In this document: positions 1-28,197 of the stretch, in pieces
How positions within the stretch are numbered: position 1 is the first letter of the stretch
Layout of the letters: each line of letters begins with the position of its first letter
Assembly: GCF_013155295.1 (NCBI RefSeq)
Contig: NZ_JABJXT010000006.1
Coordinates: 1 to 64,000, forward strand
DNA: 64,000 nucleotides
Direction of reading: 5' to 3'
From: Pseudogemmobacter hezensis
GTDB lineage: Bacteria > Pseudomonadota > Alphaproteobacteria > Rhodobacterales > Rhodobacteraceae
Notes under the pieces: model-generated
Database searches by the model: none
The model's input: the letters and a program-made list of their open reading frames with translations, nothing else
What the model was told of the DNA's origin: nothing
Position numbers and translations under genes: made by a program

Positions 1-239
1 CCAGTGGCGGAACCTGGCTCGATTTGTCGAAGCGGCAGCCCGAACAGAACCTTCACCATCAGGCAAAACTGGATCGCGGCATCGCTGAACACAGCCGGTC
101 GGCCATTGCCACCGGCCTTCGGCGCAAACCACGTCATGTCCTTGTCCAACCAGATCAACAAGGAACCACGCCGCTTCAGGGCATCGTTGTAACTCTTCCA
201 GTTCGTCGTCCGATAGCGGGTAGGGGCAGGTCGCGTCAT
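1..239 (-). CDS. IS5-family transposase, N-terminal part (runs off window)
   Basis: Reading from the ATG at 239-237, the protein starts MTRPAPTRYRTTNWKSYNDA and continues through FSDAAIQFCLMVKVLFGLPLRQ. This is the N-terminal (DUF772-like) region of IS5-family DDE transposases; no catalytic DDE residue is inside the window. After GLPLRQ, relatives normally continue into a stretch like TTGFVESLL, but here the frame reads IEPGSAT. The coding sequence may therefore be broken near position 25, or the member may simply be divergent. Family assignment is fairly sure; intactness is unknown. Confidence 0.6.
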   Translation of the reverse strand, partial: MTRPAPTRYRTTNWKSYNDALKRRGSLLIWLDKDMTWFAPKAGGNGRPAVFSDAAIQFCLMVKVLFGLPLRQIEPGSAT

Positions 240-306
240 CGCAGACCATTAGCCCTATGGATTCCTCGTGTGAATCCTGCTCGCGGGGGGATTCTGCAAC
301 AACGCC
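1..306 (-). mobile_element. IS5-family insertion sequence end (partial)
   Basis: The segment carries the start of an IS5-type transposase on the minus strand and, beyond it, a terminal-repeat-like sequence reading GGCGTTGTTGCAGAATC on the minus strand (290-306), which resembles IS5/IS903-group ends. The rest of the element lies outside the window, so its other end and the target duplication cannot be seen. The element abuts the small-RNA array that begins at 352. Confidence 0.6.
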
Positions 307-351
307 GATGCTGAGCAACGCCATTCAGATGCGAAATGAAGAGGGGGGAGG

Positions 352-424
352 GCGGCGGTTCCGAGGGAGGAGGAGAGGAACCGCCGCATGTTCCGGTGGC
401 GCAAGGGAGGAGGAGAGCGCCGCC
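352..424 (-). ncRNA. CcsR/cuckoo-type small RNA, fourth copy (distal)
   Basis: Two hairpins lie 7 nt apart. The one at 395-424 has an 8-bp stem with one C-A mismatch on the transcribed strand; the one at 352-387 has a perfect 11-bp stem. Both loops carry CUCCUCCUCCC on the minus strand. The double hairpin with an anti-Shine-Dalgarno-like loop is the hallmark of the CcsR (cuckoo) RNAs known from Rhodobacter sphaeroides. This copy is last in the array and nearest the insertion sequence. Confidence 0.75.
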
Positions 425-470
425 GAACTGGTCGGGCAACCAACCTTGCGGTCTTGCCCAGATGGTTAGC

Positions 471-544
471 GCGCGACAGCTCCTGGGAGGAGGAGCGGAG
501 CTGCCGCGCATTCCGGCCACCCCAGGGAGGAGGAGAGGGGCGCC
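471..544 (-). ncRNA. CcsR/cuckoo-type small RNA, third copy
   Basis: Hairpin 515-544 (stem with a G-U pair and a bulge) is followed after 5 nt by hairpin 471-509, a 13-bp stem whose one non-Watson-Crick pair is a G-U only when the minus strand is transcribed. Both loops contain CUCCUCCUCCC on the minus strand. About 46 nt separate it from the copies on either side. Confidence 0.75.
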
Positions 545-591
545 GAAGCCGTGAGGTCCTGATCCAGAGAAGATCCTGACCGGTATCTGAT

Positions 592-661
592 GCGGCGACC
601 CCAGGGAGGAGGAGGGGGGTCGCCGCTGGTTCGAAGGCCCAGGGAGGAGGAGAGGGCCACC
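592..661 (-). ncRNA. CcsR/cuckoo-type small RNA, second copy
   Basis: Hairpin 636-658 (5-bp core, extendable with a bulge to 628-661) is followed by hairpin 592-626 with a perfect 11-bp stem GCGGCGACCCC/GGGGTCGCCGC. Both loops read CUCCUCCUCCC on the minus strand. As in the other copies, the second hairpin is the stronger one. Confidence 0.75.
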
Positions 662-697
662 GAATAAGAGGGATGCCATTCGCATCCGCTATAAAGT

Positions 698-767
698 GGC
701 GCCACCTGGGAGGAGGACGGTGGCGCCGTCTTCACCCCGGGCTCAGGGAGGAGGAGAGAGCCCGGTG
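698..767 (-). ncRNA. CcsR/cuckoo-type small RNA, first copy (next to DUF1127 gene)
   Basis: Hairpin 737-765 (perfect 8-bp stem CCGGGCTC/GAGCCCGG) is followed by hairpin 698-727 (perfect 9-bp stem GGCGCCACC/GGTGGCGCC). Both loops carry the CUCCUCCUCC motif on the minus strand. It begins about 10 nt after the stop codon of the DUF1127 gene, which fits co-transcription with that gene and later processing, as known for the R. sphaeroides locus. Confidence 0.8.
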
Positions 768-775
768 CGAGAAAC

Positions 776-997
776 TTATTTGCCGTAAGCCGCTTCGCGG
801 GCGACTTCGTTAATCATCGAGCGCGACATGCCCAGATCCGAGAGATCGCGGTCGGAAAGAGCGCGCAGCTCTTCCAGGGTGCGCAGGTAAAGTTTGCGCC
901 GTGCGACTGCGTTGCGGATGGCCTCAACCACGTCGCCGATCAGCGAAGGGCGGGCAATGGCGGCGCGGGAAGTGTTTACATATGCCATGTTCTTCAA
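776..997 (-). CDS. DUF1127 small protein (CcaF1-like)
   Basis: The 73-residue protein has the DUF1127 core near its C-terminus (LEELRALSDRDLSDLGMSRS). In Rhodobacter sphaeroides the DUF1127 protein encoded just upstream of the CcsR RNAs (CcaF1) is an RNA-binding protein involved in maturation of those RNAs. The same order here, with the eight-hairpin array directly downstream on the same strand, suggests the same role. The start at 997 has AGAGG 5-6 nt upstream; a second ATG three codons in (MAYVN) is possible. In the known system expression is driven by stress (RpoH) sigma factors; I could not fix a promoter in 998-1200. Confidence 0.85.
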   Translation of the reverse strand: MKNMAYVNTSRAAIARPSLIGDVVEAIRNAVARRKLYLRTLEELRALSDRDLSDLGMSRSMINEVAREAAYGK

Positions 998-28013: not shown

Positions 28014-28090
28014 GCGGTTGTAGCTCAGTCGGTTAGAGTACCGGCCTGTCACGCCGGGGGTCGCGGGTTCGAGCCCCGTCAACCGCGCCA
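28014..28090 (+). tRNA. tRNA-Asp (GTC), copy 1
   Basis: A 77-nt cloverleaf with acceptor GCGGTTG/CAACCGC, discriminator G and encoded CCA. The anticodon loop CTGTCAC sits on the stem CCGGC/GCCGG, giving anticodon GTC. Confidence 0.97.
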
Positions 28091-28120: not shown

Positions 28121-28197
28121 GCGGTTGTAGCTCAGTCGGTTAGAGTACCGGCCTGTCACGCCGGGGGTCGCGGGTTCGAGCCCCGTCAACCGCGCCA
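28121..28197 (+). tRNA. tRNA-Asp (GTC), copy 2
   Basis: Identical in sequence to the copy at 28014-28090, including CCA, 30 nt downstream. The two are probably co-transcribed from the promoter at 27943. Confidence 0.97.

Follow-up and report, generated by a model that had tools for sequence, protein, structure and literature searches.

In R. sphaeroides, an RpoHI/RpoHII promoter drives ccaF1 and four CcsR RNAs, whose maturation involves RNase E and CcaF1 (PMC10253847, PMC8625941) and PNPase in CcsR turnover (PMC7866481). The gene flhR is a CcsR target, and increased amounts of CcaF1 interfere with CcsR maturation (PMC8307010). Hairpins with anti-Shine-Dalgarno loops have been described in rhizobia (PMC3927594), and the cuckoo motif consists of 2–4 hairpins (PMC4504443). 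The ar14 RNA NfeR1 is repressed by NtrC and silences ntrBC in turn, which results in a double-negative loop (PMC10746234). The signal behind the CcsR RNAs is given as stress sigma factors in the accessible portions of the published CcsR work. For PhaR, CTGCNNNGCAG is the binding sequence of the R. sphaeroides protein, the sRNA MmgR is repressed by PhaR in S. meliloti, and two sites flank the -35 element of S. meliloti phaP1 and phaP2 (PMC12542648).

In this work, we analyzed a stretch of 64,000 nucleotides from Pseudogemmobacter hezensis (hereafter the window, always at its full length). As in the R. sphaeroides CcaF1-CcsR1-4 locus (CIN1, RF02791), four RNAs come after a small DUF1127 gene and share its strand, an RpoH-like promoter sequence precedes the gene, and RF02791 matches all four units. 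The DUF1127 (CcaF1-like) small protein is encoded at 776–997 on the minus strand, with a probable ATG at 988 and the stop codon at 776–778, and matches PF06568 with 38.2 bits (cut-off 23.3); it is one of six PF06568 matches in the source genome. A search of named contigs with this protein returned three loci, assigned to Rhodobacteraceae, Sulfitobacter, and Paracoccaceae. Directly behind the gene, eight [C/G]UCCUCCUCCC hairpins form four pairs on the minus strand at 346–775, the first motif being located 21 nt past the stop codon. The CCTCCTCCC motifs have their 5' ends at 754, 716, 650, 612, 533, 493, 413, and 373 of the minus strand, with successive distances of 38, 66, 38, 79, 40, 80, and 40 nt. 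A hairpin is predicted around each of the eight, and no CCTCCTCCC motif was found on the plus strand of the array in the motif and hairpin scan. Paired hairpins with CCUCCUCCC loops, a feature of CcsR RNAs, are thus present at 8/8 motifs in four pairs.

All units are double hairpins on the minus strand, and each folds alone with -39.5 to -45.7 kcal/mol. Unit 1 (691–775; RF02791 45.8 bits, E 8.6e-10; -44.7 kcal/mol) has its loops at 746–756 and 708–718, the second with G for C. Unit 2 (587–667; 52.8 bits, E 7.4e-12; -39.7 kcal/mol) has loops at 642–652 and 604–614, unit 3 (468–549; 40.8 bits, E 2.6e-8; -45.7 kcal/mol) at 525–535 and 485–495, and unit 4 (349–428; 40.3 bits, E 3.7e-8; -39.5 kcal/mol) at 405–415 and 365–375. 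In the fold, each of the three spacers forms an additional small minus-strand hairpin lacking the CUCC loop motif, at 671–687 (-9.3 kcal/mol for a 22-nt stretch; also a terminator-like match with six pairs), 555–581, and 433–460. An earlier reading of the sequence only had described eight hairpins with invariant loops, in pairs 5–10 nt apart and about 38–46 nt between units, with stems differing almost completely between copies. The eight hairpins and their pairing stand. The loop is CUCCUCCUCCC in seven of the eight hairpins but GUCCUCCUCCC in that at 708–718, the distances in the full fold are 0–3 nt within units and 33–44 nt between them, and the stems, although different between copies, have a GCGGCG/CGCCGC-like base in common among the 3' hairpins. 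Identical anti-Shine-Dalgarno loops on divergent stems are also characteristic of ar14/NfeR1 (Smr14C) of S. meliloti (RF02344); unlike the array in the window, NfeR1 is one RNA of three hairpins transcribed from a promoter of its own, and its repressor and target differ.

The 11-mer CTCCTCCTCCC has seven copies in the 4.6-Mb genome, all in the array and all on the minus strand, compared with one copy per strand for its reversed control. The 9-mer CCTCCTCCC has 17 copies, eight in the array and nine scattered (reversed control: 11). A leftover fifth unit elsewhere in the genome was considered and rejected, as those nine copies are scattered and at control level, and all eight scattered sites inspected have a single motif per locus. 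By count, the bare 7-mer CTCCTCC shows no excess in the 64-kb window (15 copies against a shuffle mean of 10.9, with 14 of 100 shuffles reaching 15); all 15 copies fall within 366–756, and it is this clustering rather than the number that is improbable. The hairpin criterion is loose, being passed also by seven of the eight inspected scattered CCTCCTCCC copies and, for a control word, by 6/6 copies on one strand and 2/6 on the other; the case for the array therefore rests on strand asymmetry and on relatives.

An Rfam scan of the window at gathering scores returned three tRNAs only. Two adjacent tRNA genes, at 28014–28087 and 28121–28194, have equal scores. With an E-value threshold, RF02791 (CcsR1) matched all four units on the minus strand (40.3–52.8 bits, E 7.4e-12 to 3.7e-8), and RF02344 (ar14) had three matches in the window, with unit 2 at 50.6 bits. 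Unlike the CcsR reference, the four units, at 40–53 bits, are all under the RF02791 gathering score of 65.3 bits (best 52.8), and no match in the window reached the RF02344 gathering score of 58.8 bits. Among 149 genomes of the same family (source genome included), 121 match RF02791 at E ≤ 0.001 and only eight pass the gathering score, so a sub-threshold score is normal here; this gathering score apparently picks out close relatives of the seed, not the family as such. In 385 genomes of the class, 20 match and none pass the gathering score; these comprise the source genome, four further members of its family, and 15 genomes from other families, and the latter may be chance matches since the scan finds no CCTCCTCCC hairpin at 12 of the 15 loci. 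In two genomes (G094 and G088), RF02791 matches are found on several separate contigs or places, which indicates further CcsR-type units besides one array. We also aligned the units with MAFFT (97 units reduced to 74 non-redundant, minus seven more of L021; n = 67), and RNAalifold recovered only four pairs because the variable stems misalign; RF02791 was therefore used in place of a covariance model of our own. The sequence-only reading had named a complete four-copy CcsR/cuckoo array behind a DUF1127 gene and a match to the cuckoo model as its check. The check, run with the Rfam CcsR1 and ar14 models, did not refute the reading, although all matches are below gathering score, and the RF02791 matches to all four units, the PF06568 gene upstream, and the same layout across the family agree with the assignment. 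Assignment of the array to the known CcsR/cuckoo (CIN1) kind is supported.

For comparisons, we collected 41 DUF1127 loci: the window, the best loci found in 29 other family genomes, and 11 from the genus (L062 and L063, both second matches, were left out); closer relatives are over-represented, as the 29 are the best-matching genomes of 134. An array is found downstream on the DUF1127 strand in 39 of the 41 loci, with 1–17 hairpins (median eight, with two zeros counted), and the first motif is a median 21 nt past the DUF1127 stop codon. None of the 41 has motif hairpins on the strand opposite DUF1127. One locus has three motif hairpins upstream of its DUF1127 gene and none downstream (L029:1857-1942), and another has no motif hairpin (L033). 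When sampling started from the RNA, a DUF1127 gene was found upstream on the same strand in 21 of 30 loci, 13 of the 30 being from genomes already in the protein-first set; the remaining nine have no match, within the fetched stretch, to an HMM built from 30 relatives. In L023:735-1279, L025:970-1269, and L022:952-1277, the array consists of near-identical tandem copies of one unit, which points to recent duplication or homogenization, while the four units of the window are diverged.

The 3' end of the array is close to an insertion sequence (1–307, minus strand) that is cut by the contig end and encodes a DDE transposase (gene start 239; PF13737, 67.5 bits). Elsewhere in the genome, this element has six matches; in five, the match ends at query position 307–311. 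Its boundary at about 307 is about 44 nt downstream of the last array hairpin. It is not part of the CcsR system. Truncation of the array by this element was considered and rejected: sister species have five units (L051, L053, and L054) or four (L052), and unit 4 of the window corresponds to the last unit in all four, with one compensatory U-A/C-G difference from them. Because unit 4 is the orthologue of that last unit, the array is complete, as had been claimed. In L051 and L054, the flank on this side has terminator-like hairpins (by eye), unlike the window, where the insertion sequence is just downstream; judged from these flanks, matching terminators of the source strain would lie beyond the insertion sequence, and read-through of the transcript into the transposase is possible. 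In L018, L020, L026, L031, L032, and L037, a T-rich tract adjoins the last paired CUCC hairpin, which may double as an intrinsic terminator. The last hairpin of the window has no T-rich tract.

To assign the transcribed strand, stems were picked on Watson-Crick pairs only, by a rule blind to strand, and G-U pairs were counted against A-C mismatches; with short ungapped stems, 78 of 414 motifs were dropped. The G-U pairs fall on the CCUCC strand rather than the other at 66:7 in the 29 loci and the window (p 4e-13), 22:10 in the 11 genus loci (p 0.05), and 40:4 in 17 further genomes (p 2e-8). In the relatives, this asymmetry indicates that the RNA is read from the CCUCC strand. The window alone stands at 1:1, since by this rule the hairpin at 493 contributes a G-U pair and that at 413 an A-C mismatch. 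The single G-U pair that the sequence-only reading had offered as pointing to the minus strand is consequently no proof by itself, and minus-strand transcription of this array follows from homology with the relatives. For the 336 of 414 motifs retained, 8.5 of the first nine stem positions are paired between a hairpin's own arms, a value inflated because offsets were chosen for fit, compared with 5.17 when arms were re-dealt. The stem pairs are free to vary (third pair from the loop: CG 182, GC 51, TA 43, and AT 37; n = 336), and the loop 9-mer is constant across motifs because it served as the query word. By counting G-U against A-C pairs in relatives, the strand of such symmetric hairpin arrays can be assigned without data other than DNA sequence.

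The upstream regions contain a further conserved feature, located at 1055–1113 in the window and thus beyond 997, where the stretch first described had ended. Among 49 upstream regions (200 nt before the DUF1127 start in the window, the 29 and 11 loci, and eight of the RNA-first set), gapped words are common to up to 36 regions, compared with a maximum of five in 20 letter-shuffled sets, and these words form two blocks. Block 1, TGCTGC-N3-GCAGCA, is perfect in 18 of the 49 and has at most two mismatches in 12 positions in 45, compared with 1.7% of block-shuffled sequences; no dyad within two mismatches was found in L018, L028, L029, and L106. In the window it is the strict dyad TGCTGC-ATG-GCAGCA at 1099–1113 (no strand assigned), which contains CTGCNNNGCAG, so that the site sequence of the PhaR regulon is present in the promoter region. 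Block 2 consists of TTGTGCANNTGCAGCA followed by approximately CCCCATGTT; its part GTGCN4GCAGCA is found with at most one mismatch in 10 positions in 44 of 49 regions, compared with 1.4% of block-shuffled sequences. Both blocks are present in 42 regions, and 41 of these have them 32–33 nt apart, or about three helical turns.

Block 2 resembles a promoter for a heat-shock sigma factor. The consensus of such promoters is TTG ... CCCAT. From position and from the family block, a putative RpoH-like promoter can be placed at 1055–1083 on the minus strand, with TTGTGC at 1083–1078 as the -35-like and CCCGCATGTT at 1064–1055 as the -10-like element, the latter departing from the family CCCCATGTT. The spacing of the two is suited to an RpoHI/RpoHII promoter, for which TTG and TAT are given as elements in the accessible part of PMC10673084; no site was returned by a sigma-70 scan. 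Within 1068–1083 on the minus strand, a second PhaR-like site, GTGCN4GCAG, overlaps the -35 and spacer. The terminator-like hairpins predicted on both strands include the dyad at 1099–1113; its distance to the promoter is fixed, though, and the neighboring gene (from 1255) is divergent. The shorter CTGCN3GCAG occurs six times in the 64-kb window. At the nine CcsR loci without a DUF1127 match, a dyad with at most two mismatches is present in eight, 72–253 nt before the first hairpin (these are best fits in 680 nt, of which about 6% would pass by chance), and the second site is near five. No DUF1127 frame was seen in L090, which has the longest gap between dyad and hairpin. In the sampled loci, the operator accompanies the RNA more than the protein.

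The strict dyad occurs at five places in the source genome, and its reversed control at none. These are the phaZ/phaC intergenic region, a position before phaP with phaR next, the position before the CcsR operon, and two positions inside open reading frames, for a repeat protein and for another DUF1127 protein. The latter (L137:1501-1515; C34:25002 in the source genome) falls within the coding part of a second DUF1127 gene and is perhaps due to chance, although a dyad near another DUF1127 gene is seen in two relatives as well. The source genome has phaR (PF07879, 94.1 bits; PF05233, 44.9 bits), and its phasin match (phaP, 23.3 bits) is just under Pfam's 24.9. In 15 relatives, chosen for having the operon and good assemblies, there are 62 strict dyads and one control match; 17 of the 62 belong to the pha cluster, spread over 14 of the 15 genomes, six are before the CcsR operon, and 39 are beside genes left unclassified, two of these being near another DUF1127 gene (L170 and L193). 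The dyad before CcsR is perfect in only six of the 15 relatives and has 1–3 mismatches in the others. The likeness to the phaP/phaC promoters of the PhaR regulon concerns the dyad itself, which the source genome also has before phaP and in the phaZ/phaC region. Its placement differs: before phaP it is flanked by CTTGAAA and a TATA-like stretch, whereas at the CcsR promoter it precedes the -35, which a weaker site overlaps. Upstream of phaP in L162, L167, L178, L184, L194, L197, L204, and L208, we found CTTGAAA-TGCTGCnnnGCAGCA followed by a TATA-like stretch, and the dyad there looks to be set inside the promoter spacer.

These patterns suggest that the dyad before the CcsR operon is a putative PhaR operator with good specificity, and that the locus is a CIN1-type operon whose promoter would be held by PhaR and relieved by PHB granules, a reading to which we give a probability of about 0.7. 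By analogy with R. sphaeroides, one minus-strand transcript would start at an RpoHI/RpoHII-type promoter and contain the DUF1127 (CcaF1-like) gene followed by four CcsR/cuckoo RNAs; RNase E would cut it into four double-hairpin sRNAs, with the DUF1127 protein modulating this step. The exposed CUCCUCCUCCC loops would then pair with G-rich Shine-Dalgarno sequences and block translation. PhaR, as the sensor of PHB granules, would bind the two sites about three helical turns apart, one of them over the -35 and spacer, and repress the operon when no PHB is stored; PHB granules would titrate PhaR away and so allow CcsR synthesis under stress. The kind of array is known, and the conserved PhaR-type operator would be the added part. 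MmgR belongs to an RNA family other than CcsR and is not known to be part of a DUF1127 operon. The proposed control resembles it in that MmgR, too, is an sRNA under repression by PhaR (AniA) and has a link to PHB accumulation (PMC12542648). The accessible parts of the published CcsR work on R. sphaeroides make no mention of PhaR-type sites, and the word PhaR is absent from those of PMC4344238 and PMC10673084. Within the open literature searched, we found no link of PhaR to CcsR, CcaF1, or DUF1127; the primary CcsR papers, which may mention one, were outside this scope. PhaR sites would tie the stress RNAs to carbon storage, and R. sphaeroides, a laboratory model for both the PhaR and CcsR systems, is where the idea can be tested.

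An ordinary CcsR operon under RpoH alone, with the dyad being a site of another regulator or part of the promoter and no link to PHB, appears unlikely. RpoHI/RpoHII control of ccaF1-CcsR is published for R. sphaeroides (PMC10253847), the second site overlaps the -35 and could itself be promoter sequence, and the 39 of 62 strict dyads in relatives that are beside unclassified genes would also fit. Against these points, the dyad matches the published PhaR site of R. sphaeroides (PMC12542648), two of the three dyads not placed inside an open reading frame belong to the pha cluster of the source genome, and the dyad stays at 8/9 CcsR loci where no DUF1127 gene was found.

If PhaR controls the RNAs, the RNAs may also act on phaR. 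In the source genome, CTGGGAGGAGAGAGGGCATC precedes the phaR ATG and pairs with the CcsR loop at -24.0 kcal/mol, compared with -15.1 for phaC and -8.8 for phaP; the best pairing among the 52 genes of the window is -15.6 kcal/mol, and GGGAGG occurs once among them. In 12 relatives, phaR pairs at -11.1 to -19.1 kcal/mol, with GGGAGG in nine and not in the other three. This gives 9/12 for GGGAGG before phaR compared with 3/73 for other genes in the fetched loci (Fisher p 1e-7), these background genes, like the 52 of the window, having been called by a greedy ORF rule with crude starts; seven of the 73 reach -16 or better. GGGAGG was found before phaP in 0/13 cases and before phaC in 1/4, and the phaC starts in four relatives pair well too (-11.2 to -17.2). 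The G-rich Shine-Dalgarno sequence before phaR may simply mean strong translation. A search of the source assembly for the 16S 3'-end pattern had no match. Blocking of phaR translation by CcsR, which would close a double-negative loop, is accordingly put forward only tentatively from these predicted pairings. With similar reserve, the CcsR/cuckoo RNAs of Rhodobacteraceae could be imagined as members of the PHB-granule regulon at large, turned on by RpoH under stress and silencing phaR through their loops in a double-negative switch. The NtrC-NfeR1-ntrBC circuit has the same shape as that proposed for PhaR and CcsR (PMC10746234), and such a switch between carbon storage and stress would, if true, parallel NtrBC-NfeR1 in rhizobia.

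About as unlikely as control by RpoH alone is a decoy or scaffold role, in which the loops would titrate DUF1127 protein, Hfq, or Shine-Dalgarno sequences generally and array length would set the dose. Freely varying stem pairs around the loop word, array sizes of 1–17 hairpins across loci, near-identical tandem copies in some arrays (L023 and L025), and the RNA-binding nature of CcaF1 (PMC10253847) are compatible with such a role; it is at odds with the 9/30 RNA-first loci that have no neighboring DUF1127 match, with the published mRNA target flhR of CcsR1-4 (PMC8307010), and with the pairing of the related NfeR1 with ntrB (PMC10746234). Many hairpins with GGA loops are the shape of CsrB-type sponges. 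A plus-strand reading, in which GGGAGGAGGAG hairpin loops titrate CsrA/RsmA protein like CsrB or RsmZ, draws on the many GGA loops that this strand of the array would present, but was rejected as extremely improbable: CsrA (PF02599) has no match in the source genome (the control search was positive in 3/14 known genomes), the G-U asymmetry favors the minus strand, and opposite-strand motif hairpins occur in 0/41 DUF1127 loci.

The organization of the arrays differs in several relatives. The longest have 17 hairpins (L024:1754-2516) and 15 hairpins (L021:1719-2327), and the spacings in L024 suggest groups of three hairpins rather than two. L097 (genome G007, minus strand) has a run of four DUF1127 genes in tandem within about 2.1 kb, with eight CcsR-type hairpins after the first and one each after the second and third, and the module of protein plus RNA looks duplicated there.
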